A DNA stretch of 64,000 nt from Spirosoma foliorum. GTDB lineage: Bacteria > Bacteroidota > Bacteroidia > Cytophagales > Spirosomataceae. Position 1 is the first letter of the stretch. Every line of letters begins with the position of its first letter. Made by a program: the position numbers and the translations under genes. Positions 4,970 to 23,070 of this stretch are shown in pieces. The notes under the pieces are model-generated. The model was not told the origin of the DNA and ran no database searches. It saw only the letters and a program-made list of their open reading frames with translations. The DNA is taken from contig NZ_CP059732.1 in assembly GCF_014117325.1 (NCBI RefSeq), positions 3,795,001-3,859,000 on the forward strand. The letters are read 5' to 3'.

Positions 4970-4999
4970 ATTTCAATTCCTCACAGGTACGATTAGAAG
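4970..4999 (-). CRISPR. solitary perfect CRISPR repeat inside the higBA operon
   Basis: These 30 bases are identical to the repeat of the array at 9353-10829 (ATTTCAATTC at one end, GATTAGAAG at the other), 4.4 kb away. Read on the minus strand, the same direction as higB and higA, the repeat ends in the ATTGAAAT handle and is followed by exactly 36 bases (4934-4969), the common spacer length in the array, before the higA ATG. An imperfect hairpin (about 5001-5028) lies just upstream. It could be an orphan repeat, a Cas6 cleavage site in the higA leader, or a CreA-like guide RNA. Confidence 0.9.
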
Positions 5000-5036
5000 T
5001 TTAAGATTCCCTTCAAGGGAAATTTAAACTTTCCAC

Positions 5037-9352: not shown

Positions 9353-10829
9353 ATCCCAATTTCTCACAGGTACGATTAGAAGATGACTACCGAACGGAGT
9401 GATACACACTCCTTCGATATTTCAATTCCTCACAGGTACGATTAGAAGAAAGCGTGTAATTCCTTCAGCTTGTCTTTGTAGCCATTTCAATTCCTCACAG
9501 GTACGATTAGAAGATTATGGGGATGCCATACACCTAAAACCTTACTTTATTTCAATTCCTCACAGGTACGATTAGAAGAATTATTAATGTGTAACAACTT
9601 GATAACTTTTAACGAATTTCAATTCCTCACAGGTACGATTAGAAGGATCCAACACTGTAAGCAAGTCAGCCCCACTCACCTATTTCAATTCCTCACAGGT
9701 ACGATTAGAAGAGAGTACCTTTTACAAGAGTGCAAGGGACGCACGATATTTCAATTCCTCACAGGTACGATTAGAAGACAAACCCATGAGTCCGACCGAA
9801 GAAACACCTATCGTATTTCAATTCCTCACAGGTACGATTAGAAGACAATCCTGCGGATTTTCGTTACAACACCTTTACCGAATTTCAATTCCTCACAGGT
9901 ACGATTAGAAGTTCATTCTTGCGTTTCTCAAACTCACGGCTTAACTGATTTCAATTCCTCACAGGTACGATTAGAAGTTAAACTGCAATTCCCTGGATTC
10001 AATCGGTTTATCGATTTCAATTCCTCACAGGTACGATTAGAAGCAGCCAGGTAGGTGTTGACACTATCCACATAGGCGTATTTCAATTCCTCACAGGTAC
10101 GATTAGAAGGAGCCCGCTAAGCGAATTGATTACTTACAGGAGGTATTTCAATTCCTCACAGGTACGATTAGAAGGCTGTCCAGCCTGTAATACAGCCTGT
10201 ATTACAAATATTTCAATTCCTCACAGGTACGATTAGAAGTAACTCCTCAGATAGTAAATGGCGCGAGTGATCCCTATTTCAATTCCTCACAGGTACGATT
10301 AGAAGGCCTGGCCGAAATCGACCAGTATAAGCTACTGCCGGATTTCAATTCCTCACAGGTACGATTAGAAGCCAATCGGAATACGACGACTTTCATCCGA
10401 TAGCAATATTTCAATTCCTCACAGGTACGATTAGAAGAGAATTAGAAAAATTCGCGCATTACAATTTTGCTACATTTCAATTCCTCACAGGTACGATTAG
10501 AAGGGATGTAGTCCACACGAGTGTAGCCCCCCGAATCGCATTTCAATTCCTCACAGGTACGATTAGAAGGAACACTTTTTCACACCGCCCCTCTTTGTTA
10601 ACCGCATTTCAATTCCTCACAGGTACGATTAGAAGATTGTGCGCACGATATTGGGTACCGTATCATCCACATTTCAATTCCTCACAGGTACGATTAGAAG
10701 TTCAGCAAAGCCGCCGGAGAGCGTAGCCGCACTGGATTTCAATTCCTCACAGGTACGATTAGAAGCCGGATGTGACCGTATCGGATTTTTTAAAAGCAGA
10801 TTTCAATTCCTCACAGGTACGATTAGAAG
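9353..10829 (-). CRISPR. type I-B-like CRISPR array, 23 repeats, 22 spacers
   Basis: A 30-bp repeat (plus strand ATTTCAATTCCTCACAGG followed by TACGATTAGAAG) occurs 23 times, first at 9353-9382 and last at 10800-10829, with spacers of 34-37 bp. The minus strand is taken as the crRNA sense because the repeat then ends with ATTGAAAT, the typical type I-B 5' handle left by Cas6. The copy at 9353 has three changes at the handle end, as expected for the oldest, trailer-side repeat, so the leader is at the 10830 side next to cas2. All other repeats look identical. Spacer 13 (10175-10209) contains a 19-base palindrome. I saw no spacer that matches elsewhere in the window. Confidence 0.98.
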
Positions 10830-11056: not shown

Positions 11057-11320
11057 TTATAGAAAATCATCGGTCGATTGCCGTTCCTTACCTACAATCT
11101 GCTTATCCAACCACTTCTTGTCGCGGTTTTTGAACAGGATCAGACTGTCTTCATCATCTTTCATAATACGCCGGGCTTCGTAGAGCAACTCATTTAGCTG
11201 CACATCTGTCATCTCGCCTTCGAACACCGAATTCTGAATCCAGTTCATATACTTCCGACAGAGTTTCAGCATCTTCCCGACACGCTTCTGCCCCATGTCA
11301 TAGACTAGAATTACGTACAT
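11057..11320 (-). CDS. cas2: CRISPR-associated endoribonuclease Cas2
   Basis: An 87-residue Cas2, the central dimer of the Cas1-Cas2 spacer integrase. It begins MYVILVYDMGQKRVGKMLKLCRKYMNWIQNSVFEGEMTD, with the ferredoxin-fold first strand and its conserved Asp (VYD) and the NSVFEGEMT segment, both standard. The ATG at 11318-11320 is chosen because family members start at this strand; an upstream in-frame ATG at 11392 would add 24 residues made from the intergenic hairpin. It is the last cas gene before the leader and the array. Confidence 0.95.
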   Translation of the reverse strand: MYVILVYDMGQKRVGKMLKLCRKYMNWIQNSVFEGEMTDVQLNELLYEARRIMKDDEDSLILFKNRDKKWLDKQIVGKERQSTDDFL

Positions 11321-11334
11321 AGCACAATTTTGAA

Positions 11335-11400
11335 TGATAGAATGATTGAGTAATTGAATAGATGGTACAGAATTATTCATTAATTCTATCACTCAATCAC
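11335..11400. repeat. intergenic hairpin between cas1 and cas2
   Basis: An AT-rich imperfect inverted repeat built from words such as TGATTGAGT, GATAGAAT and AATTGAATAG, in the 108-bp gap between cas1 and cas2. The same words make the perfect 37-bp palindrome at 27736-27821, so the two are related in composition. Confidence 0.55.
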
Positions 11401-11428
11401 CGCGCGGGCGGCCCCGTCAACATTAAAC

Positions 11429-12442
11429 TTACCACCACGCCTTAAATGGTCGATACTCTTCAAGGCCCAGCAGATGCTTTTGTAGTTTGTAACATTCCAG
11501 CTTGACTAAATGCCGGTAGCTCACGCTTCGACCCAACGCCCGATGTTTAATGGTTTCCTTCAATTGTTCGTCGAAACCCTGTACAAATCGCTTCCGGGCG
11601 GCTTCTTTCATGACGCATCCGCCCACTTCCGACCGAAAATCGGATGGTTGCAGTTGCCGTTTGTTGACCATCCGAAAGATTAACCGGTCGACCAATATGG
11701 GCTTGAATACTTCTGCCAGATCCAGCGCCAGGGAATACCGTCGCGCGCCCGGCTCGTGCAAAAAGCTGATCGTCGGGTTGAGTTGCGTGTGGTAAATGGT
11801 GCTCAGGCAGGCCGTATAACATAGCGTGTTGCCGAACGAAATGAGCGCATTGAGTTCGTTTTGGGGTGGGCGTTTGCTGCGACCGTCCATGCAAAAGGTT
11901 TGCCCAACAATGGCATCGAAGCAGCCGTAATACGTTTGGCGGATATTGCCTTCAGTGCCCATGAGCATCGGGATGTCTGTAGTGGTCGGAACGGTACTCA
12001 ATAAACGTTCGATGGTTACGATGGCATCGGTTAACTCTTTCGCTTTGTCTCGGTTGTCGTAATACTTCAGGACCCGAAGGATATTATTGGCCGCTCCTTC
12101 CACAAATCGGCGGGCAATATCGATACGCTTTTTGGCCGACATGTAATGCTTCGTCTGGTCGACCTGCATCTTACCCGCCAGCAGATACTCGCGCGGCATG
12201 AATGAGCCCGTGTAATGCTCGTAGTAATTGAAGAAATGGACGGCAATACCTTCCTGCCCCAGAAAGTTATACAGGGCGCTATTAGCATCCAGACTCCCAA
12301 ATACATACAAATCGCCAACCTGTTCAATGGGCAGGTAACGGGGTTGCCCTTCGGTGCCGTCTTCGTCGACTGGTGTAAACTTCAGCGTGTTGTCTTTCCG
12401 GCTCATCCGACCCGCGTTGAAGAGGTATTTAGGTTGTTTCAT
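11429..12442 (-). CDS. cas1: CRISPR-associated integrase Cas1 (I-B type)
   Basis: A 337-residue Cas1, the metal-dependent integrase that inserts spacers at the leader end. The N-terminal beta domain (MKQPKYLFNAGRMSRKDNTL, LYVFGSLDANSALYNFLGQEGIAVHFF) is typical of Cas1b. The helical catalytic domain carries the metal ligands: Glu164 in LMGTEGNIRQTYY, His229 in SFLHEPGARRYS and Glu244 in LDLAEVFKP. The length is normal. It follows the kinase-like gene by 43 bp in the minus-strand cas operon and probably acts with Cas2 and Cas4. Confidence 0.97.
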   Translation of the reverse strand: MKQPKYLFNAGRMSRKDNTLKFTPVDEDGTEGQPRYLPIEQVGDLYVFGSLDANSALYNFLGQEGIAVHFFNYYEHYTGSFMPREYLLAGKMQVDQTKHYMSAKKRIDIARRFVEGAANNILRVLKYYDNRDKAKELTDAIVTIERLLSTVPTTTDIPMLMGTEGNIRQTYYGCFDAIVGQTFCMDGRSKRPPQNELNALISFGNTLCYTACLSTIYHTQLNPTISFLHEPGARRYSLALDLAEVFKPILVDRLIFRMVNKRQLQPSDFRSEVGGCVMKEAARKRFVQGFDEQLKETIKHRALGRSVSYRHLVKLECYKLQKHLLGLEEYRPFKAWW

Positions 12443-12485
12443 AAGATGGGTGGATTAAAAAAATAAGTAAGTCCGATTGCTTTGG

Positions 12486-13013
12486 TCACCGATTCAGGAA
12501 GTAGTCACGGAATTTGATTAATTCGTCTCGTTCAACGTCCAGATACTTTTCAAAAATCCGTTCACCTACCTGCGTTTTCAGGGCTGAAATTCCCACGTCG
12601 ATCAACCTCAATCCCTGCTCGGTTAGTAGGATATTGTCGAATGCAAGGCCATCTAAATCAGAGGGTCTTTTGAGATCCCGATGCACAAACCCAGCCTGAT
12701 GTAACTGAGTCAGTTCGTCGGCAAAGACATCATACCAGAGTTCCCGACGTTCAATTTCATAGGCCCGATAGTCTATGGGGCGAATACGTTCCATAATCAG
12801 CATTTCGGCCTGCAATTCATCGCTGTAATCAAGCCTGACGAATTTGACCACCAGATCATTGACTGTATTGGCAAATCTCATTTTCTCTGCCTCCGAACCG
12901 ATATCAGAGCGCGTATCGCCCGTGAAGAGTTTAGCCACTTCTGTATCCGACAGCACAATGACCGTATTGTTGGCTCCCGATGATAAACGACGTGGATAGT
13001 TCATGTAAAGCAT
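12486..13013 (-). CDS. small protein-kinase-like protein encoded between cas4 and cas1
   Basis: A 175-residue protein with a complete set of eukaryotic-like kinase motifs in compact form. These are a Gly/Ser-containing first strand (LSSGANNTVIVL), the strand-3 lysine in TEVAKLF (Lys28), a helix-C glutamate in IGSEAEKM (Glu41), a hinge-like MLIMERIRP, the catalytic loop HRDLK (111-115) with Asn127 in FDNILL, and a metal-binding Asp139 in LIDVGIS. Between HRD and Asn there is a 10-residue insert (RPSDLDGLAF) compared with the usual HRDLKPEN spacing. The C-lobe is very short (kinases normally exceed 250 residues). ATG starts exist at 13013 and 13004; an upstream TTG would bring it within 5 bp of cas4. 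It lies in line with cas4 and cas1, suggesting co-transcription. Its substrate is unknown; it could phosphorylate a Cas protein, RNA or small molecule, or be a pseudokinase. Confidence 0.8.
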   Translation of the reverse strand: MLYMNYPRRLSSGANNTVIVLSDTEVAKLFTGDTRSDIGSEAEKMRFANTVNDLVVKFVRLDYSDELQAEMLIMERIRPIDYRAYEIERRELWYDVFADELTQLHQAGFVHRDLKRPSDLDGLAFDNILLTEQGLRLIDVGISALKTQVGERIFEKYLDVERDELIKFRDYFLNR

Positions 13014-13039
13014 GGTTTTATTGATACAAGGCAAGTACG

Positions 13040-13546
13040 TTACTCTTCTTCAATCCAGCAAAAATCAAAGTAACTGCACGATCGGCATTTCGACTTTTCG
13101 ATACGACCGGGGCACTGCTCGCTTTCCACAATCCGCTCGATGTCACGTATCCAGCTTTCTACCATTGGAACATCGGCTTCCTCAAGCTGGACGCGTTCGG
13201 TCTGACGCAACTTAGGATATTCAATCAGCCCCGTAGCACCTTCTACGCCGTTTTTTCGTAACAGATACAGATAGAACTGCACCTGAGCAATGTGCGAGTG
13301 CTCAAACTTGTCCGATTTCTTAATCTCATGGATCACCTTATCATACGGATCGTAAAAGTCGATTTTCGACCCGTCGAGCGTGATTTCGCGGTAGCGTTCA
13401 GCGCGTTGCGGGTAGGCCTGTTCATGTAGTTGTTTGCCTTGGGCTACCAGCTCGGAATTATGCTCCATACGAATGTGGTTGACGTGCAGCCAAAGTTCAC
13501 GTTTGCAGATGTGATACATGCCGATGAGTGAGCCGGTGACATTCAT
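13040..13546 (-). CDS. cas4: CRISPR-associated exonuclease Cas4
   Basis: A 168-residue Cas4, a RecB-family nuclease that trims prespacers and selects their PAM end with Cas1-Cas2. Cys14 (MYHICKRELWLH) and the C-terminal trio Cys154, Cys157, Cys163 (KCRSCSYFDFC) form the 4Fe-4S site. The nuclease core is seen as GSKIDFYDPYDKVIHEIKKSDK followed by HIAQVQFYLYLL. Only 3 bp separate it from cas3 upstream, so it is in the same operon. Confidence 0.95.
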   Translation of the reverse strand: MNVTGSLIGMYHICKRELWLHVNHIRMEHNSELVAQGKQLHEQAYPQRAERYREITLDGSKIDFYDPYDKVIHEIKKSDKFEHSHIAQVQFYLYLLRKNGVEGATGLIEYPKLRQTERVQLEEADVPMVESWIRDIERIVESEQCPGRIEKSKCRSCSYFDFCWIEEE

Positions 13547-13549
13547 AGT

Positions 13550-16342
13550 CTAAAGGAATGAGTTTGCAGAGTCATCAAATGCATCTTCCATCAAACCTGC
13601 ATCTGTCTTATACACCTTATTGTGATGGGACAAATACCAATAGCCATACGTCGTATCTGCATTCAGGCAAAAGCTTTTCATTTTGTCTACGGTCTTTGAA
13701 TGGGCCATAAGTGAAAAAGTAAACTTCCCTAAAATGCTTTGTAACGTTTTGAAATTAATTCGATCATTTAAATCAAATCCTTTTCCTGCTTTTCTATTAG
13801 CAATGTCCTGCCAAATAAATCGCTCATAACATCTCCACACCGATTCTCCATTAATAAATTCATCCCCGTCTCTATAAGCACCATAATGAATTAGGAATGC
13901 AAGATCATCCTCGGAAAACATCGGTTCAAGTTTGCCTTCTTCTGCCGATTCGATCCAAACGGGAATATCAATAGGTACAAAAACGGATTCATTCTGCTGA
14001 TCAATTATTCTAAAATTTCTATCGATTTGAGTGAAATTTAACCGATTTAAGTGATCCAGGATTTCACCAGAAAAATTATCAGCGTATGCACCCTTGTTAA
14101 AGCCATCAATCTTGCTAAAAACCTCCTGATATAGTTTATCGAATCGCTTTTCCGAAAGTATTTCCTGAGCTATTTCCTTAGAAATTTTACCTTCCTGAAT
14201 CACTTTGTATCTATAATCAGACCCGTACAAAACTCTCGAATCATCTAACCGAAATAAATAAACCTCGCAAAGGCCTTTACTAGCATTGCGATTAACGCGT
14301 CCCGCCAGTTGCTCATCACTATCCAGAAGCGAGATATTCTTGAATCCTAAATCCATATCGATATCTACACCCGCTTCTACAACCTGTGTAGTAATTAGCA
14401 AAACATTTTTTCTTCGATAAATTGGATTCTTTAACTGATTGATAATCTGGCGTCGTCTAAACTCAAGAATAGTGCCTGACAAAACAAATATCTCATCAAA
14501 CGGGTGATCGGCTTTTTCAATAACCTGCTTAAACGTAGAAGCCGATTTCTTATAAATGAACTCAATAATCGTGTGAACGCTACCATGTTGTTTGTTCTGC
14601 TCCGCAAACTGCGTTGACTTATCAATAACTGTCTTGGCTAATCCATTCCAATCATCTTCGTTTTTGGCGTCAAACTGACGGTCGTATAGCTCAAAGTTAA
14701 AATGTACTCGCTCAGCAAAATTTGGATTTTGAAGGTATTTCTGTGCATTTGGTAGAAGCTCCTGAAATACGGGCAAAGGTCTAAGTTTCAAATCCAGCTT
14801 ATCCAGTTTGGGCAACGTAGCAGACATCAGGATAAATCGGATGTTGAAAGCCTCTGCATATTGGCTAATGAAGTACAACATCTTATCCCATATTTTGGGG
14901 TTATAGGATTGCAGTTCATCAATAATCACCACCGAATTAGCCAGTCGGTGCAACAGGTAATTAGTTTCTTTTGAATTGGTTTTCAGAATATCAAAGAACT
15001 TCACATGAGAAAGCAGCGTAACCGGATAAAGTGCAAACAGATTGTCGATATAATCTTTCTTGTCTCGACCATACACATCATCTTCTTTCTTTGCCTCGCT
15101 TTTACTCTGAAAACCAGCCTTTGAATGAAGTTCAACTAATTCCAGATTAGTCAATTGTAGCGTTGACTGTACGGCTTTATAGGTCTGCGTAATTAGCGTT
15201 GTGAACGGAAAAACATAGAATACCTTTTGCAGCTCTGGGTTCTTATCTAATAACTCTGTCAGGGCAATCATCGACAGATTGGTTTTCCCACCACCCGTCG
15301 GGGCTTCAATATAATAAAGTCGCTTATCCGAAAATTTGCGAATAGTTTGAAGCAACTCGATGGCCATTTCCCGGCGCAGCTTGTTCAAATTCCCTCTAGA
15401 CTTTTCCCGTAAGGATTGCTCCTGAAATACATAACCAGACTCCAGTTGTTCAAAGGTGTCTTTGTTATGCTCAAATTGGCGAAGGTTTTGGATAATTGCC
15501 TCGATGCGATCACGGTCATTCAATACACCCAAGTCATTAGTCACATCGCCACTCATATACTCGTGCGTTGCCAGATAATCCGACGCCGTAAGCAAGGAGA
15601 AGTTGAGTTTCAAAAGGGCAAAAAGCGCAAATGATGAACCAGAAACCCGTTCAAATTCAGCCCAAAAAGTCTCAAAATCGCTAAAAACAAACTCAGACAA
15701 CCCTTGTTCAAACGAGAAATTATAAAGTCGTAGATAATGCTGAACCTGAGCATAGAAACTTCCAAAATCAGCTTTCTGTACACCTGCTTTAACCTCATCT
15801 ACATAAGGACTATGGTGCTTTATAATCGTGTAGGAGAATTGCAGGATGAGAACAGTCAAATACTGCAATTCTCTTTCATCTAATTCATTGTCTTGCTCAA
15901 TTTGACTAAGAAAATAACCTACATACATATACGCACCTAACCAGGAGTGGCCATGTGCTGGTGTAAACGGACTCTGCGGGTTTGGCTTAAACATCGGGTT
16001 CCGCATTCGGGAAGCCTGAAAATCTTCGTTTACTTTCCCAAAGTCATGGAAGGCAATGGTATTGACGAAAAGGCGTTTAATCCAATCATTAACCTTACTT
16101 TCCTTTTTGAAAGAATCCTTTGTGAGGTTAAGGATGAGCCGGTTGATAACGGGCTCTAATCCATGGGCATCACAAATTTTTTCAAAATAGTCGTTTACTA
16201 AATCACAATGTTCGAACAGTTTTTCAGGCTGTTTGAGGGCTTCTTCGCCTTTAGCAGGTAGATGCGCCCAGTACTGTTCATGTACTTGGAGCAAGGCGGC
16301 AATTGTTGCTCGTTCTTGGTATAAAGTGTGGATAGAAATCAT
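13550..16342 (-). CDS. cas3: CRISPR-associated nuclease-helicase Cas3
   Basis: A 930-residue fusion of HD nuclease and SF2 helicase, the effector that unwinds and shreds DNA bound by Cascade. The HD domain has the His-Asp pair at 99-100 (IAFHDFGKVNEDF) plus HGHSWLGAYMY and IIKHHSPY. The helicase has Walker A EAPTGGGKTNLSMIAL (about residue 347), a DEAD-box variant VVIIDELQSYNP (about 475), motif III MSATLPKLDKL, and motif VI LDSDEQLAGRVNRNAS. The start at 16342 lies 3 bp after cas5. Nothing appears truncated, so interference is expected to work. Confidence 0.96.
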   Translation of the reverse strand: MISIHTLYQERATIAALLQVHEQYWAHLPAKGEEALKQPEKLFEHCDLVNDYFEKICDAHGLEPVINRLILNLTKDSFKKESKVNDWIKRLFVNTIAFHDFGKVNEDFQASRMRNPMFKPNPQSPFTPAHGHSWLGAYMYVGYFLSQIEQDNELDERELQYLTVLILQFSYTIIKHHSPYVDEVKAGVQKADFGSFYAQVQHYLRLYNFSFEQGLSEFVFSDFETFWAEFERVSGSSFALFALLKLNFSLLTASDYLATHEYMSGDVTNDLGVLNDRDRIEAIIQNLRQFEHNKDTFEQLESGYVFQEQSLREKSRGNLNKLRREMAIELLQTIRKFSDKRLYYIEAPTGGGKTNLSMIALTELLDKNPELQKVFYVFPFTTLITQTYKAVQSTLQLTNLELVELHSKAGFQSKSEAKKEDDVYGRDKKDYIDNLFALYPVTLLSHVKFFDILKTNSKETNYLLHRLANSVVIIDELQSYNPKIWDKMLYFISQYAEAFNIRFILMSATLPKLDKLDLKLRPLPVFQELLPNAQKYLQNPNFAERVHFNFELYDRQFDAKNEDDWNGLAKTVIDKSTQFAEQNKQHGSVHTIIEFIYKKSASTFKQVIEKADHPFDEIFVLSGTILEFRRRQIINQLKNPIYRRKNVLLITTQVVEAGVDIDMDLGFKNISLLDSDEQLAGRVNRNASKGLCEVYLFRLDDSRVLYGSDYRYKVIQEGKISKEIAQEILSEKRFDKLYQEVFSKIDGFNKGAYADNFSGEILDHLNRLNFTQIDRNFRIIDQQNESVFVPIDIPVWIESAEEGKLEPMFSEDDLAFLIHYGAYRDGDEFINGESVWRCYERFIWQDIANRKAGKGFDLNDRINFKTLQSILGKFTFSLMAHSKTVDKMKSFCLNADTTYGYWYLSHHNKVYKTDAGLMEDAFDDSANSFL

Positions 16343-16345
16343 ACG

Positions 16346-17146
16346 TCAGAAAAGTTGGACGACAGCTTTAGTACCCTGCTCATCTTCAATCTGAAAGAGA
16401 TTGTTAATGGTGGATTCCTGCGAGAGAGTAAAATCTGTGTAAGCAAAATCATAAAGCTGGTATTGAACCAACGTTTCATGAAAATTCACTGGCAGTCGCT
16501 CGAAGTAGGAGAAAGTAGCCTGGTTCGATATAGTTCTGTTCCTGAACGAAATCTTGACAGTTACTTGCTCGTCTTTTAATGGATTGCTTTTAATGAATAG
16601 TGTGTTTAGCAGGAAATCCTGACCAGGCAAAAAAGCCTCATGGTTATATTCTTTTAGCGATACACTTCCATCATTGTCCATCAACCACCACGCCTGAAAT
16701 TCATTTTTACCCAAATATGGAATGTATTCAGCCTGACCATTTTTCAGATATTCATACAACTTACTGTGGTCGGGGTTTTCTATATCCAGCAACAAATAGC
16801 AACGGTAGGCCGGTTGAATCAACATCATTTCCTCTACCAGCAAATTGCCATCATCATTAGCGTAGCCAACGGTGTTGGTATATTTAACGCTGGTTTTCTG
16901 GAAATTCCCCTTTTCATGATCCAGCGGCTGAATACCAATAGGCAATTCCTTTAGCCGTTGATAATATTCCGGAAACTCGCCTTTTTTACTATATCCTTTC
17001 AGGCCAATAATAGCCCCAAGGATTCCTAGCAAAGCCGGCTTATGGAGCATGTTATACGACAACAGAATACCATCGTTGTAATCGGGTTTCTTGAAAAACC
17101 CGAAGTCTGCCCGCAAGTCGAACGAAATCAGTTTCTGGTTCGCCAT
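16346..17146 (-). CDS. cas5: Cascade subunit Cas5 (type I-B)
   Basis: A 266-residue Cas5, the RAMP subunit that caps the crRNA 5' handle. The opening (LISFDLRADFGFFKKPDYNDGILLSYNMLHKPALLGILGAIIGLKGY) is the Cas5 N-terminal RAMP strand and helix. A phenylalanine and arginine-rich core and a C-terminal strand segment (YDFAYTDFTLSQES) follow. It lies 7 bp after cas7 and 3 bp before cas3. Position and sequence support type I-B of the Csh/Cst group. Confidence 0.9.
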   Translation of the reverse strand: MANQKLISFDLRADFGFFKKPDYNDGILLSYNMLHKPALLGILGAIIGLKGYSKKGEFPEYYQRLKELPIGIQPLDHEKGNFQKTSVKYTNTVGYANDDGNLLVEEMMLIQPAYRCYLLLDIENPDHSKLYEYLKNGQAEYIPYLGKNEFQAWWLMDNDGSVSLKEYNHEAFLPGQDFLLNTLFIKSNPLKDEQVTVKISFRNRTISNQATFSYFERLPVNFHETLVQYQLYDFAYTDFTLSQESTINNLFQIEDEQGTKAVVQLF

Positions 17147-17153
17147 TGCCGAG

Positions 17154-18104
17154 TTAATTTAGTTCCAGAACCTCAGCACCTGCGGGCGCATTCAATACGG
17201 TCGTTACAGCCTGATCATAGTAAAGCTCAATTTTCTCGATCTGGCTTTTGATATGTTCCCGACCAAGAATGGCACTCACTTTAGTCAAGTCGATTTCCCG
17301 GCTTTCATTCTCGCCAACAGTCACACTCACCAATTCCACAAACGATGGTAAGACTAACTTGGAATCAGCCTTGAGTTGTACCCAAAGTAATAATTCGTTT
17401 TCGGTACCGGCTTTGGCAGATGAATCGTACAATGTAACACCCGAACGTAGTGCCTGCTTCAATTTAACAATATCCTCCTCTGTGACGCCATCATTACTGA
17501 CCAACGATGCCATGTCTTCCAGATTTCGGGGATTGACTGACAGGTGATGAACGTAGTGACCTTCGCGCAACTTAAACTGAGTTCCAAGGGTCGTCTGCAT
17601 TGAATCGGCACTTTTATCGTTGGAATTCCGGAACGGCGACGAAATCTGCTCCGAGTAAATAATTCCCTCCGGGAAGCGGTTAACACCATGCGTAAACTGC
17701 ACTGTGCCATGTAATGAAAGATTGGCTCCTGAACTGGCAAACGTGCCACCAAACAGCCGTATATCAATGCATTTTAATAGATTTTCGAGAATCTGCTTAC
17801 GGACTTTTACCGCAGCATCTTTGCCTTTTTCAGCCGTTGGAAAAGCGGTAAAATGCTTAATGTACGTCTGGTCAAGATCACGAGGCTGCATTTCGTCACT
17901 CAAACTTTTGAAGTAAAAAACACGCTCTTCACCTAAGTGCTTCACGAAGTAATTACGAATAGAATATTTTAACGCTTTATCGGTGGCGTAAACTGTACCA
18001 TCGGGAAGAGTGCGGGGCTGGTGCGTAAAATCCGCGTTATAATTCGAATTAATTGATTTAATAATGGCACAGCCAAAAACGCGATTCTTAAAGGATTGAC
18101 TCAT
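17154..18104 (-). CDS. cas7: Cascade backbone subunit Cas7 (Csh2/Cst2-like)
   Basis: A 316-residue Cas7 backbone protein of the DevR/Csh2/Cst2 group, which polymerises along the crRNA. Typical features are the N-terminal RRM strand (RVFGCAIIKSINSNYNADF), the segment ATDKALKYSIRNYFVKHLGEE with the crRNA-handling helix, and LFGGTFASSGANLSLHGTVQFTHGVNRF in the middle. It follows cas8 by 34 bp. An exact subfamily name would need a profile search. Confidence 0.9.
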   Translation of the reverse strand: MSQSFKNRVFGCAIIKSINSNYNADFTHQPRTLPDGTVYATDKALKYSIRNYFVKHLGEERVFYFKSLSDEMQPRDLDQTYIKHFTAFPTAEKGKDAAVKVRKQILENLLKCIDIRLFGGTFASSGANLSLHGTVQFTHGVNRFPEGIIYSEQISSPFRNSNDKSADSMQTTLGTQFKLREGHYVHHLSVNPRNLEDMASLVSNDGVTEEDIVKLKQALRSGVTLYDSSAKAGTENELLLWVQLKADSKLVLPSFVELVSVTVGENESREIDLTKVSAILGREHIKSQIEKIELYYDQAVTTVLNAPAGAEVLELN

Positions 18105-18138: not shown

Positions 18139-19998
18139 TTATTCTTCGGTTGGAGTTGACTCAGTTTCTATTTCCTCTTTTTTCTCCTTGTCGCTGAATA
18201 GCGCATTTTGGGAGAAAATCCCCGCTAGCGTAGTTGGCATCAAGTCACGAATACTGGCTTTTGTCTCATATGCCATGACTTCAGCAAACGGCGTACGAAA
18301 ATTGGACGAGAACGTTTCGTGCTTATACGTATCGAATAAGCGGGCAATGGCCTTATTCAATTCCTTCGCATGAACCTGTTGCAGAAAGGGTTCCAGTCGT
18401 TTGTAGCTGGTATCGCTGGTTTTACTTTTAGTCAGCAGATAGTAGATGACCTGCCCAACTGTAAAAGCATATTGCTCGTCGGTCTCAATGGTGGCTTCAT
18501 TTTTAGTAAGCTGCTGAATGAATTTTCGGTGTGTCTGTAACTTATTGGCCATAGTTTCAACGGGTTTATATTTACGCTCAAAGTTCTCGGAAAGGCTGAA
18601 CCAGATATTTAGCTTTTGGCGAATCGAATATTCTTGGGTATGCCGATTATTTTTGATTTCATCCAGCCGTAGATCGTCAAGAATGCTGGTCTGTAAAATA
18701 TCATCGAACATCAGCTGCGTAACTGCCTGTCTTTTTGATTTATAGATAAAATCATAAAAGGCTTTACGATACTTCATGACCAGCAGATAGGTATTGTCTG
18801 ATTTGCAATACTTTGCATCAATATCGTCGAAGAATTTGTATTGAAATCCGCCCGCTTTTGTTTTGACAACTAGCGAGTTGTTCAGAATGGATACTAGAAT
18901 AGAGTACTGAAAGTCGAAGACATTTTTGACCGTTGGCTGGTAATTAATAGAGAAGTAATCAGCTACTTTCCACGGTTTACCCGCTTCGTCGTTCAGGTAA
19001 TAGTCAAACTTGGAAACAAAGTCAAAATCCTTGATTTCACCAGCCAGATAGAACAGGAGATAGTAGTTTCCTACATCGTCATTATGCTTTTCATTCAGCG
19101 TTTCGATAATCTCTTTGTAGCCAATTCGCTCGCCGTCTTCTGCACCTTTTTTAAACAGTGCAACAGCATCCTTCTTCAATTCATCGCGATCGACAAAAAT
19201 GGGCAACGGTCTTGGTAGAATCCCACGATCAATGATGTCGTGAAATTCGAATAAAGTACGAGCCTCGACAGACGAAATACGGCCGGCAATGTCGAATGAA
19301 GCTGTTTGGTGCAATCGGTACGCCTTCTTAGTTGAAAAGCCATTAATAAAATCGCTTGTACCGTACACCACATCATCAACTGACAGATTGAATTGATTCG
19401 TATTGAATAGTTTATCAGCTAAATACTTCGTATTAGTCTTTTGGTAAGCTTCCAGCGGATCATTCAGGTAAAAGACAATGTAGTTCGCATCTTTCAGCGA
19501 CTCATATTCTGGAATCTGACTCAAAATAGCGTCCAGCTTTTCTTCGCTGTTCAATGCATATTTGAAGACTTCGATACGTTGCTTTTCGGATTCATCGTCC
19601 AGCAAGTCAAGGGCTTTGGCAAAATACGCGTTAACACGCTCCGGCAGTTTTGTCTTGGCATCGGCATATTTAGCGCCACCTTTCAGGGACTCTCGTTTGA
19701 AAGCCAGGCAATACGGCGAACAGGAGTGAATTCCTTTAGCTGGCAAGTCGAAGCACTTATTGGTATTGACCATCCAAGCCGCCTGTGCCCAAGCAGCGCA
19801 CTCCTGAAGAAACGAGGTCAGTCCTACCATTTTCTTCGTGTAGATTTCTGAAATAAACCCATCAGGTGGCCAGTAGACCTGATTATCTTCCTGTTTAAGA
19901 GTCAGAACGATGTGTAGCCCTTCTTTGGGGACTACACCGATGTTGTTCATCTCCTGTTCTTTAAGGGATTGTGTGAATTGGACGATTTCTTTAAGCAT
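18139..19998 (-). CDS. cas8b: Cascade large subunit Cas8b (Csh1-like)
   Basis: A 619-residue large subunit, first gene of the effector operon, expected to read the PAM and start R-loop formation. It has a zinc-finger-like set of cysteines (C82, C93, C97 in KCFDLPAKGIHSCSPYC), a long helical body and an acidic tail (KEKKEEIETESTPTEE). Assignment rests on position before cas7-cas5-cas3, its size and the Csh1-like cysteine block, since Cas8 sequences diverge strongly. Its upstream region carries a guide-matched site (20016-20026) for the mini-CRISPR at 20074-20123, so it may be repressed by its own Cascade. Confidence 0.88.
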   Translation of the reverse strand: MLKEIVQFTQSLKEQEMNNIGVVPKEGLHIVLTLKQEDNQVYWPPDGFISEIYTKKMVGLTSFLQECAAWAQAAWMVNTNKCFDLPAKGIHSCSPYCLAFKRESLKGGAKYADAKTKLPERVNAYFAKALDLLDDESEKQRIEVFKYALNSEEKLDAILSQIPEYESLKDANYIVFYLNDPLEAYQKTNTKYLADKLFNTNQFNLSVDDVVYGTSDFINGFSTKKAYRLHQTASFDIAGRISSVEARTLFEFHDIIDRGILPRPLPIFVDRDELKKDAVALFKKGAEDGERIGYKEIIETLNEKHNDDVGNYYLLFYLAGEIKDFDFVSKFDYYLNDEAGKPWKVADYFSINYQPTVKNVFDFQYSILVSILNNSLVVKTKAGGFQYKFFDDIDAKYCKSDNTYLLVMKYRKAFYDFIYKSKRQAVTQLMFDDILQTSILDDLRLDEIKNNRHTQEYSIRQKLNIWFSLSENFERKYKPVETMANKLQTHRKFIQQLTKNEATIETDEQYAFTVGQVIYYLLTKSKTSDTSYKRLEPFLQQVHAKELNKAIARLFDTYKHETFSSNFRTPFAEVMAYETKASIRDLMPTTLAGIFSQNALFSDKEKKEEIETESTPTEE

Positions 19999-20012: not shown

Positions 20013-20026
20013 TCACATTATAAGCT
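20013..20026. promoter_or_regulatory. candidate Cascade target site upstream of cas8
   Basis: Plus-strand TCA (20013-20015) as a possible PAM followed by CATTATAAGCT (20016-20026). The 11 bases match the start of the spacer-like sequence at 20085 (CATTAAAAGCT) except at position 6; the next mismatch is position 12. A Cascade bound here would cover roughly 20013-20048, the AT-rich promoter and leader of cas8, whose ATG is at 19996-19998. Confidence 0.6.
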
Positions 20027-20073
20027 AAATAGAATATATAAAAGTATAGTTTTGCAAACCATACTTAGACAAG

Positions 20074-20123
20074 GGAATTGAAAACATTAAAAGCTTGCCG
20101 AAAGGCTCCTAAATCGTACCAGT
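20074..20123 (+). ncRNA. minimal CRISPR-like RNA (CreR/CreA-like) upstream of cas8
   Basis: Three parts are in the order of a one-spacer array, in crRNA sense on the plus strand. GGAATTGAAAA (20074-20084) equals the handle half of the array repeat except for the last base. A 21-base spacer-like segment follows (20085-20105). CTCCTAAATCGTACCAGT (20106-20123) matches the first half of the repeat with two changes and one inserted A. The other halves of both repeats are absent. The known CreA and CreR RNAs of type I systems have this shape, with short partly matching guides. The first 11 guide bases match 20016-20026 with one mismatch at position 6. The element could alternatively belong to an RNA toxin-antitoxin pair; no toxin was identified. 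Confidence 0.72.
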
Positions 20124-20150
20124 CCAAGTCATTTTTACCACCTATCCCAC

Positions 20151-20930
20151 ATGCTCCATAATTACCTTTTCATTGACGAATGCGGAGACCCGGAATTCTA
20201 TGGGAAACGTAAGAAGTTACTAGTCGGCGAACCTGGCTACCAGCCACTGCTGATCCTTGGCTTAGTTGAAACGACGGATCGTAAATCATTAAAACAGGCA
20301 GTTCTTGCATTTCAGCAACAGATATTAGCCGATTCGCTTTATCGAAGTATCTATTCTGTTCAAAAGTCCGGCTGGTTCTTACATGCTCGCGCAGATCATC
20401 CCGAAATCAGGGGCGAATTTTTTAAATTCCTACGGAGCTACCCAGATATTCGTTTTCACGCAGTTATAGCTAGAAAAGACTTATCTATTTTTAACCGGAA
20501 GCACAATAGCAATCCGTCAGAGTTTTACTTTGATATTGTCCATCACCTCCTGAATGGGCGATTTCAGTTTGATTACAGTTATAATATTTATTTGGCTCAA
20601 AAGCAGAAGAATAGCCAAGATCGATTTGTGAAAGCAGTCGACCAGACAATTGTAGCCGATATACAACAGGAAAAATTACAGGGAGCCCCCAATTACAGAT
20701 GTAGTATTGTGCCAAGCTCGGAAATGCCAGAACTGAGCGTTGTTGACTATTTCCTTTGGGCATTGCAGCGATACATCTACCAAAACGAAATACGTTTTTG
20801 GGAATCAGTTGAACATAAAGTGGTAAGTGTGCTGGATTTGTATGACCACCAGAATTTGGCAGGAAATATATATTCTGGAATAGAGAAGCCGTTTCGCTTA
20901 GAGAAAGCCAGCCCATTTTTAGGGCAATAA
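20151..20930 (+). CDS. DUF3800 domain protein inside the cas locus
   Basis: A 259-residue protein of the DUF3800 group, thought to adopt an RNase H-like fold and often found in defence islands and mobile elements. The N-terminal motif LFIDECGDPEFYG is the family's FIDESGD with Cys for Ser. The C-terminal block MPELSVVDYFLWALQRYIYQ carries the second conserved Asp. It lies between cas6 and cas8 but on the opposite strand, directly downstream of the mini-CRISPR element and in the same direction. It may be a guest defence gene, or a gene read from the mini-CRISPR promoter. No nuclease activity is demonstrated for this subgroup. Confidence 0.82.
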   Translation: MLHNYLFIDECGDPEFYGKRKKLLVGEPGYQPLLILGLVETTDRKSLKQAVLAFQQQILADSLYRSIYSVQKSGWFLHARADHPEIRGEFFKFLRSYPDIRFHAVIARKDLSIFNRKHNSNPSEFYFDIVHHLLNGRFQFDYSYNIYLAQKQKNSQDRFVKAVDQTIVADIQQEKLQGAPNYRCSIVPSSEMPELSVVDYFLWALQRYIYQNEIRFWESVEHKVVSVLDLYDHQNLAGNIYSGIEKPFRLEKASPFLGQ

Positions 20931-21081: not shown

Positions 21082-21903
21082 TTACATACTCACCCCCACG
21101 GCCCCAAATCCTTCCGCGTTATATCTCCCCACACCAGCTAGCACAGCTAATTCTAGCAACTCCCTCGGGCCGCTTAGTTCAAACTGGAAGTTGTAATAGC
21201 CTTTTATTCGGGTCTCTTCCCGTGAGCCTTCCTTGATCGTTACCAGTCGGGATTTGGGTTGGGCTGCGTTTCGCCCCTGGGCTGGTAATAAGCGATAGGC
21301 TACAGACGACGTATCAAATTCGTCCATAAATGCGGTTCCGGCTGGCACTGCGGTTTGAATACTGCCGTATTTGGCCAATAGATTCGTGATGAGCAACGGA
21401 CCAAATTGCTCGTCGGCAGGATGTAAATATTGATCGATGCTTCGTTCGTCTTTCTCCGCAATCACGACTGGCGATAGGGTACGTAATTGAACGGTTTCAC
21501 CAGTAATCTCTACAGGCACGGCTTCTACGCGCTCAATAATGAACTCCGCGAGATGCCGGGGAGAGGCTATCACACAACGTTGATCCTGGAACAAACCCAT
21601 AATAAAATGCTGGGCAGCTTTGTCGATGTAGAAACTAACGATCCACTCTATATGTAGGGAGTTTACCCACATGCCTCCCGCCCGTACATCGACCTTCACA
21701 TTGGGCATAATCAAATCCGAAAACGTAAACAGTTTGAATCGTCGGGTAGGCGAAAATTGATATCCTTGCGAGTGCAGGAACTCGGCATATTGCTTATCGG
21801 CATCGGCTAGCACGCCATAAATGAACGCACTGAGTCGGTACGCATAATTGAAGGGTACCAGAGTCTGGCGGGCAACCGGGCGGAGGGTTAACTTGAACTG
21901 CAT
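21082..21903 (-). CDS. cas6: CRISPR RNA-processing endoribonuclease Cas6
   Basis: A 273-residue Cas6, which cuts the pre-crRNA within repeats to leave the 8-base ATTGAAAT handle. The N-terminal RAMP strand is FKLTLRPVARQTLVPFNYAYRLSAFIYGVL, and the protein ends with the glycine-rich loop LAVLAGVGRYNAEGFGAVGV characteristic of the family. It is separated from cas8 by about 1.1 kb holding the divergent DUF3800 gene, so it needs its own promoter, in the 174 bp shared with the WYL regulator. Such separation could allow Cas6 to be expressed independently of the effector genes. Confidence 0.93.
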   Translation of the reverse strand: MQFKLTLRPVARQTLVPFNYAYRLSAFIYGVLADADKQYAEFLHSQGYQFSPTRRFKLFTFSDLIMPNVKVDVRAGGMWVNSLHIEWIVSFYIDKAAQHFIMGLFQDQRCVIASPRHLAEFIIERVEAVPVEITGETVQLRTLSPVVIAEKDERSIDQYLHPADEQFGPLLITNLLAKYGSIQTAVPAGTAFMDEFDTSSVAYRLLPAQGRNAAQPKSRLVTIKEGSREETRIKGYYNFQFELSGPRELLELAVLAGVGRYNAEGFGAVGVSM

Positions 21904-22077
21904 ATGTCTTTATAGCGGTGGGGATTGAAAGTTGAATGAGGCTTTCCCGTTTTTCTACTATTTTTTTCCTTTGACTTTAGTTAACGGTGTAAAAGTAGAT
22001 TTGCTTCCGTACAGCCTATGTATACGCAAGCAAATCGAATCCCATATTTGCGAAATTTTCTACACCATTTAGCTACC

Positions 22078-23070
22078 ATGCCCATTGTCAAGAATCGCGA
22101 AGAGCGGTTACAGGCCATCAACAGCCGCCTAAACCGTTGGGGGAATCGCCCCGCCACAACCGAAGAGCTGGCTGCTTTATGCCAGGTAGCTCAATCGACC
22201 ATTAAGCAGGATATTGCTTATCTGAAAGAGGTTCACGATGCGCCCATTGAGTACAGTCGCAAACCGAAAGGCTATTACTACACTCGCCCGTTCAATCTAG
22301 CCGCTTCAATTACACTAACCGACAAAGACCTGACGGCACTTCATGCGGCTGTTGCCACGTTGAATCAGTACCAGCACCTACATTTATTCGACGACCTGCG
22401 CGGAACGGTCGATAAGATTGACAAGGCCGTCCGGTTTCGTACCAATGCGGCCGATGATTACGGTCAATACATTCTGTTTGAATCAGTCCCGTTTGTAAAA
22501 GGCAGTGAGTGGGTCGACGTATTTCTGCGGGCCATTCATGCTCAATGTGTAGTGGAATTCGCCCACCAGCGATTCGATACGGAGAAAACGAAACCGCATC
22601 GGCTCTTTCCGTATGTCATTAAAGAACACCGGAATCGATGGTATGTGGTAGGCTGGCAACTGGATTATCAGTTAATCCGTGTATTTGGGTTAGATCGGAT
22701 TGTCGATGGTTCCGTACAGATTACCAACGAATCGTACGATGCACCCGAATTCGATGCGAACATCTATTTCCATCAGGCATTGGGTGTAGCCGCGTATGAC
22801 AATCCCCCCGAAGAGGTTATTCTTTCCTTCACACGCCAGCAGGGTTTGATTTTTCGGGCACAACCCTTTTATCCGTTTCAGGAAGAAGATGTCCTGGTCG
22901 ACAGCGAGCATGAACTTCGGGTGAAGCTATCGATTATCGTCAATAAAGAACTGGTATTCGAACTGGCCCGACTAGGTAATTCGGTAAAAGTGATTAGTCC
23001 GACCTCCTTAGTTCAGGAGCTAAGTGAATTCCTCAAAAGCGCCTGGCAGCAGTATATGGTTAATAGTTAA
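22078..23070 (+). CDS. WYL-domain transcriptional regulator, divergent from cas6
   Basis: A 330-residue regulator: N-terminal winged helix-turn-helix (EERLQAINSRLNRWGNRPATTEELAALCQVAQSTIKQDIAYLKEV) and a C-terminal WYL ligand-binding domain (HRLFPYVIKEHRNRWYVVGWQLDYQLIRVFGLDRI) with a WCX-like tail. The ATG at 22078 fits the usual start of this family (MPIVKNREERLQAIN); an upstream in-frame ATG at 22018 would add 20 residues. WYL proteins are known to regulate CRISPR loci, for example sll7009 in Synechocystis. The divergent arrangement with cas6 suggests control of cas6 and perhaps of the whole locus. The ligand is unknown. Confidence 0.9.
   Translation: MPIVKNREERLQAINSRLNRWGNRPATTEELAALCQVAQSTIKQDIAYLKEVHDAPIEYSRKPKGYYYTRPFNLAASITLTDKDLTALHAAVATLNQYQHLHLFDDLRGTVDKIDKAVRFRTNAADDYGQYILFESVPFVKGSEWVDVFLRAIHAQCVVEFAHQRFDTEKTKPHRLFPYVIKEHRNRWYVVGWQLDYQLIRVFGLDRIVDGSVQITNESYDAPEFDANIYFHQALGVAAYDNPPEEVILSFTRQQGLIFRAQPFYPFQEEDVLVDSEHELRVKLSIIVNKELVFELARLGNSVKVISPTSLVQELSEFLKSAWQQYMVNS

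Follow-up and report, generated by a model that had tools for sequence, protein, structure and literature searches.

A minimal CRISPR-like element divergent from a type I-B cas8b operon, a very probable cas-regulating CreR RNA in Bacteroidota

A stunted CRISPR unit in front of the cas8b operon of the window (the whole 64,000-nucleotide stretch of DNA analysed here) matches the control region of its own cas genes, and the same holds with different letters in 13 relatives, so that self-repression by a built-in guide RNA is very probable. The element (20074-20120, plus strand) is minimal and CRISPR-like, reads divergently from the type I-B cas8b operon and is, with high confidence, a CreR, a cas-regulating crRNA-like RNA that would guide Cascade to repress the cas operon. 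The element, the segmented complementarity, the unique site and the differing guides that fit their own targets in 14 loci are established by sequence; transcription, Cas6 processing, loading, repression and release by crRNA competition are predicted steps.

The locus, the element and its target

The source genome (8.85 Mb, one contig) has its nearest named relatives among the Bacteroidota. The type I-B locus runs leftward, with cas6 followed by cas8b, cas7, cas5b, cas3, cas4, a kinase-like gene, cas1b, cas2 and the array (Table 1), and the cas6-cas8 interval holds the element and a DUF3800-like gene, both rightward. Judged by order and strand, the genes from cas8 to cas2 would form one transcript. 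Pfam and NCBIfam scans of the cas8b product gave no match at E 0.001. The kinase-like (Bud32-like) gene between cas1 and cas4 (12486-13034, minus strand) gave weak family matches only. A WYL-domain regulator (22018-23070, plus strand) lies divergent from cas6, and ORFs resembling it flank cas6 by eye in three relatives (L031, L032, L037), so that there may be a second, protein layer of cas control.

Table 1. Features of the locus in window coordinates
Feature	Position	Strand	Basis or remark
Array of the locus with 22 spacers read, 34-37 nt long	9353..10829	-	
cas7, cas5b, cas3, cas4, kinase-like gene, cas1b, cas2	11057..18104	-	Pfam, NCBIfam, PADLOC
cas8b, first gene of the operon, presumed regulated gene	18139..19998	-	PADLOC Cas8b E 3.5e-99
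Presumed PAM, TCA	20013..20015	+	
Target, matched by guide bases 1-5 and 7-11 and mismatched at base 6	20016..20026	+	
TAGTTTTG, putative -7 element (TAnnTTTG) of the element's own promoter	20047..20054	+	
Left arm ACTTAGAC	20063..20070	+	can pair with 20122-20129, 7 pairs, 1 mismatch
Pseudo-repeat 1, last third of the repeat, GGAATTGAAAA	20074..20084	+	
Would-be 8-nt 5' handle ATTGAAAA	20077-20084	+	within pseudo-repeat 1
Guide, 21-22 nt	20085..20105	+	
Pseudo-repeat 2, 5' half of the repeat only	20106..20120	+	core AATCGTACC at 20112-20120
Right arm GTCCAAGT	20122..20129	+	
DUF3800-like gene downstream of the element	20151..20930	+	outside the conserved module
cas6	21082..21903	-	Pfam, NCBIfam, PADLOC

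Read on the crRNA (minus) strand, the array repeat has the sequence CTTCTAATCGTACCTGTGAGGAATTGAAAT; in ungapped alignments, 10 of its last 12 bases are present in pseudo-repeat 1 and 9 of its first 14 in pseudo-repeat 2. The pattern GGAATTGAAA-N14..42-TCGTACC occurs twice in the genome, in one array unit and in this element. An earlier note, made from the letters, had read GGAATTGAAAA (20074-20084), a 21-base segment (20085-20105) and CTCCTAAATCGTACCAGT (20106-20123) as reproducing the array's order of handle-half, spacer and repeat-start; its letters and coordinates are correct and the order stands, but the spacer comes to 22 rather than 21 bases when aligned at the AATCGTACC core. A T run (20132-20136) lies 3' of the right arm, and a search of the window for a compact terminator hairpin found none. 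Arm pairing is weak here (equalled by 70 of 1000 shuffles and by 2 of 28 crossed arms), the element folds no more stably than shuffles (z -0.09 and -0.04), and Rfam gave no match above gathering, its single match being at chance level (E 0.61).

The guide-target match proposed in the same note was confirmed: bases 1-5 and 7-11 match without exception beside TCA at 20013-20015, base 6 is mismatched, and the match ends at base 11. The target begins 18 bases upstream of the cas8 start codon; at that distance it may cover the transcription start or the leader, and it is not a proven -35 site. None of 2000 shuffled window guides reached 10/10 in the 75-base interval, and TCACATTANAAGCT (PAM plus seed) has a single occurrence in the whole genome, against 0 for a reversed-pattern control. 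Toward cas8, the best TAnnTTTG-like site does not exceed chance, and one sigma-70-like site (20072-20043) is a pattern match only. The target is presumed to be the cas8 promoter itself.

Two further repeat-bearing sites were observed. A perfect solitary 30-base copy of the array repeat (4970-4999, minus strand) lies some 4.4 kb away from the array; upstream of it on its own strand a palindrome (about 5000-5035) is visible by eye, and an antitoxin-like HTH gene may come after it. This copy was considered as a second regulator and rejected, as its would-be guide had no convincing target in the window (7 matches, one being the guide itself, with 3.7 expected). A second array elsewhere in the genome (G000:C1:2335156-2337290) carries a slightly different repeat, the CTGAGCGG variant; the genome yielded a single relative of the window's cas8.

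Carriers, guide divergence and pairing footprint

Relatives were found via cas8 alone, in overlapping sets of 149, 222, 390, 395 and 395 genomes and in contigs of named genomes, the latter giving 14 loci that included Ignavibacteria and a Melioribacter. Viral contigs gave no cas8 relative. Removal of duplicates left 51 distinct cas8 loci (49, less L076, plus three added last): L033, L052 and L062 are the same loci as L017, L022 and L035, L074 and L075 are pieces of L073, the cas8 of L076 is that of L024, and L001-L016, L045-L049, L053-L055 and L057-L059 are alternative excerpts of loci that already count under different numbers. Loci with a truncated cas8 (L043, L073, L081) or short upstream DNA (L029, 249 bases; L079, 308) were counted as misses.

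An element with a fitting target was present in 14 of the 51 loci (the window, L017, L021, L022, L023, L031, L035, L036, L037, L050, L060, L066, L069 and L070). The earlier note would have given up its reading had the guide-target match not recurred in relatives; it does recur in these 14, with guides that differ. L064 has an element for which no target was found, and in the other 36 loci our scans found neither; these include L032, whose Cas8 is 87% identical, and the three loci added last, two of which have cas6 close to cas8. The first scorings used nine and then 11 elements, L035, L066 and L070 being added from later scans (L070 by inspection). A repeat-blind scan of 49 loci, covering up to 2.5 kb upstream and ignoring the repeat halves (TTGAAA, [CT]CA, a 9-of-10 seed and a target 24-400 bases off), gave 15 matches among 181 TTGAAA occurrences, all 15 divergent from cas8 and lying in 14 loci (two in L036) and no others; eight decoy hexamers gave 2 matches in 653 occurrences. 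Upstream of its cas8, L036 has two TCA-flanked targets for one guide, 11 and 47 bases before the start codon.

Several candidate rows were set aside. The L032 row has no handle, reads TTAAAA and lies within cas6, and in the L018 row guide and target overlap as a palindrome. A loose whole-locus scan returned 13 rows for elements and seven others that were dropped (two in L020, one in L022, one in L025, two in L032 and one in L036); these sit elsewhere in the locus without a proper handle or repeat core, the exception being the L036 row, an array spacer that supplies the overlap cited below as PAM evidence.

Guides change between loci. The window and L031 have Cas8 proteins 90% identical and share 1 of 16 guide bases; the other carriers have 4 to 9 of 16 in common with their closest carrier, and each differing guide fits its own promoter region in all 14 loci. 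Comparing the window with L031, BLAST aligned the start of cas8 and the region of cas6 and left the interval that separates them unaligned, and a forced alignment of the interval scored within the shuffle range. When guides of the first nine loci were crossed with foreign promoters, 3 of 72 pairs reached 9/10 beside TCA (the L037 guide in L031, and L017 and L022 in each other) and 5 of 72 reached 9 or 10 with any flank. Per locus, 0-2 of 2000 shuffled guides reached the observed score beside TCA, against 0-126 with any flank, so that, taken by itself, the match is no rare chance event in L050 (126), L021 (41) and L031 (21). The window, L031 and L037 belong to one genus, and their targets start 18 or 19 bases before the cas8 start; in L066 guide and target match over an unbroken 18 bases.

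Because guide bases 1-5 and 7-11 served to pick the pairs, the counts at those positions are partly built in: each of positions 1-5 matched in 14 of 14 pairs, and positions 7-11 in 12, 13, 13, 14 and 13. Positions that played no part in the picking behaved differently, with matches in 2 of 14 pairs at position 6, 1 of 14 at position 12, and 11, 11, 12 and 10 at positions 13-16 (44 of 56 cells); from position 17 onward 3-6 of 14 matched, which is background. This third segment is paired in most loci, the window not being one of them. Unpaired sixth bases are the mark of Cascade, and the every-sixth-base rule invoked in the earlier note agrees with bases 6 and 12 being unmatched in 12 and 13 of the 14 pairs; judged by its letters, the segmented pattern is Cascade's footprint. 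At the unread base 6, 11 of 14 guides carry G or C, and all 14 targets carry A or T.

When the first nine loci were scored with the PAM ignored, the best match had a seed of 9-10/10 and a TCA flank in 9 of 9. The final flanks of the 14 targets are 13 TCA and one CCA, five of them PAM-biased (two TCA by a TCA bonus, two TCA and the CCA by a required flank). Three pairs of array spacers overlap by 21, 19 and 14 bases with no mismatch, giving five protospacer flanks, TCA, TCG, TCA, TCT and TCA, all TC-N and three of them TCA; a fourth pair (L036 with L088) was dropped for 4 mismatches in 18 and a CGG flank. Array spacers searched against phage and plasmid protospacers gave no match, so the PAM evidence rests on the targets and the overlapping spacers. 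These regularities bear on the idea that the element is a relic, a decayed array end whose match arose by chance or local duplication: the pseudo-repeats are indeed reduced to fragments, and the 18-base match of L066 could be a recent copy, yet a relic would not yield TCA flanks in 9 of 9 loci scored without the PAM, gaps at 6 and 12 with renewed matching at 13-16, or differing guides that each fit their own target, and we give this idea almost no credence.

Gene order, promoter, half-repeats and arms

Where cas6 ends at most 130 nt from cas8, a limit chosen after seeing the data, the element was directly before cas8 in 0 of 23 loci, against 13 of the remaining 28 (9 of the 28 with no cas6 seen nearby); in L035, one of the 23, cas6 leads the operon and the element and target stand before cas6. 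A regulator of the operon promoter would be expected to track the front of the operon in this way. Targets lie between the element and the cas operon in 14 of 14 carriers and begin 11-51 bases before cas8 in 7 of 14. Eight of the 14 have a gene between the element and cas6, namely a DUF3800-like gene in the window and L017, a DUF6934 gene in L037, a gene read toward cas8 in L066, and genes for 91-105-aa proteins in L031, L036, L060 and L069; cas6 follows the element directly in L021, L022, L050 and L070, and the L023 sequence ends too early to show. A resemblance of the 91-105-aa proteins to the BrnT toxin was considered and set aside, as they had no Pfam match and PDB gave an intein only (E 0.016). 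A CxxC-motif ORF (39-45 residues as scanned) leads the cas operon in L017, L050 and, by eye, L022; those of L017 and L050 had no Pfam match.

The intervening genes raise the question of whether the neighbour is the main client, in other words whether the element is the CreA of a CrePA-like addiction module in which Cascade holds down a toxin. Such modules exist, as the available text of PMC12737573 describes, the DUF3800-like gene lies just downstream in the same direction and some gene occupies this place in 8 of 14 carriers, but the neighbours come from several families, four carriers have cas6 directly after the element, that of L035 fronts cas6, and every target is on the cas-operon side; we consider this reading improbable. 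A KilA-N toxin promoter as target, as in CrePA, was not found: in the carriers other than L066 and L035 the neighbours were DUF3800, DUF6934 or proteins with no Pfam match, or no such gene was seen. A CreTA whose unannotated RNA toxin lies in this interval would share its seed rule with haloarchaeal creTA, which also occupies a similar place in its locus; we consider it highly improbable, the element and the cas8 start being only 75 bases apart in the window and the targets so close to cas8 in half of the carriers.

In 7 of 15 elements the 60 bases upstream of the handle contain a perfect TAnnTTTG, the Bacteroidota -7 motif, where shuffles predict 0.82; in six of the seven it stands 13-20 bases from the handle, which probably places the RNA start immediately upstream of the handle. 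Across the nine loci whose array is known, repeat positions 20-29 survive in pseudo-repeat 1 and positions 6-14 in pseudo-repeat 2, with earlier positions in the former and later ones in the latter near background; more is kept in the first half-repeat of L021 and, less so, in the second of L021, L023 and L035. Element spacers measured 15-29 nt (9 loci) against mostly 34-39 in arrays, and the element thus has neither the full direct repeats nor the array-length spacers of an ordinary array.

Bases before the handle pair with those after the ACC, with a mean stem score of 17.7 for own against 11.5 for crossed arms (0 of 100000 permutations as good). Own pairing beat all crossed pairings in 7 of 15 loci (L017, L022, L031, L036, L037, L060, L070) and at least 993 of 1000 shuffles in five of these (not L037 or L070); the arms are weak in the window, L050 and L069 and absent in L021, L023, L035, L064 and L066. 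Folding z was below -1.4 in 5 of 11 elements (L021, L023, L050, L060, L069). We regard pairing arms as a trend of the family and, for the window, as an unproven hypothesis.

Proposed mechanism and comparison with known systems

As a CreR, the element would be transcribed rightward from its own promoter, and its RNA would supply the 8-nt 5' handle (ATTGAAAA) and a short guide and be loaded into the locus's own I-B Cascade. The guide would lead Cascade to the TCA-flanked site in front of cas8, where pairing at 1-5 and 7-11 (in most relatives also at 13-16) may hold it on the promoter region; as this pairing would be too short for Cas3 attack, we propose that the cas8-cas7-cas5-cas3-cas4-cas1-cas2 operon is repressed. 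Repression would ease when array crRNAs compete for Cascade, or when Cascade is blocked.

Since own-arm pairing appears in part of the family, we also put forward, tentatively and as a possibility we would not favour, a split-repeat CreR family of Bacteroidota with a truncated first repeat, pairing arms and a swapped guide-target cassette. Here the RNA would start inside the former first repeat, of which the handle end GGAATTGAAA alone would remain, and the second half-repeat would contribute the end that binds Cas6, AATCGTACC; the arms, one before the handle and one after AATCGTACC, would pair across the guide, so offering Cas6 a circularly permuted repeat, and might help to end transcription. 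Between cas loci that are nearly identical, guide and target would be exchanged together as one whole cassette; this would point to selection for changing the guide, phage-borne mimics being one conceivable pressure.

Built-in guide RNAs that regulate their own CRISPR system very probably recur across type I-B loci of Bacteroidota. The sequence rule (a TCA flank, then pairing at bases 1-5, 7-11 and, in most loci, 13-16, bases 6 and 12 being free and no pairing following) makes such elements recognisable by a simple search, loci with 90% identical Cas8 and unrelated guides are natural pairs for orthogonality tests, and a likely switch is named for raising or lowering native CRISPR activity in these bacteria.

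CreR, a cas-regulating RNA, was reportedly described by Liu et al. in 2023 (Cell Host Microbe, doi 10.1016/j.chom.2023.08.005). The comparison with CreA and CreR drawn in the earlier note is apt. The papers cited by PMC number are drawn on for the portions of their text that are available, and the likenesses and differences given here hold for those portions. In haloarchaeal I-B CreA (PMC8501985), mutation showed guide bases 1-5 and 7-11 to be needed and 6 and 12 not; it shares with our element a PAM-flanked promoter target (presumed here), pairing at 1-5 and 7-11, two degenerate pseudo-repeats and handles made by Cas6 (predicted here), but it represses an RNA toxin rather than the cas operon presumed here, its PAM is TTC rather than TCA, and its pseudo-repeats are 30 nt long against about 10 and 9 bases kept. 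The I-F CreA of Acinetobacter (PMC10097628) resembles the elements here in its longer partial match (17 of 20 bases, the 6th, 11th and 18th unpaired) and differs in that both pseudo-repeats keep a hairpin, the client is an RNA toxin and the subtype is another. CrePA (PMC12737573) likewise uses CreA-guided Cascade as a repressor, as proposed here; its client is a protein toxin, typically with KilA-N, and none was seen beside the elements examined.

Our literature search, to whose reach the original CreR paper did not belong, returned no CreR report in Bacteroidota, and the available portions of PMC12737573, PMC12948488 and PMC13131331 make no mention of Bacteroidota, a 16-base segmented match, split-half pseudo-repeats or pairing arms in describing CreR. 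According to the same portions, CreR RNAs repress cas operons via partial promoter complementarity (PMC13131331, PMC12737573, PMC12948488) and are reported for types I-B, I-E and V-A (PMC13131331). What we observed is likewise a crRNA-like gene with handle, guide and pseudo-repeat, linked to a type I cas locus and partly complementary to the presumed cas promoter, and nothing seen contradicts membership; the kind is therefore one already described, and the split pseudo-repeats and flanking arms, with less certainty, look new.
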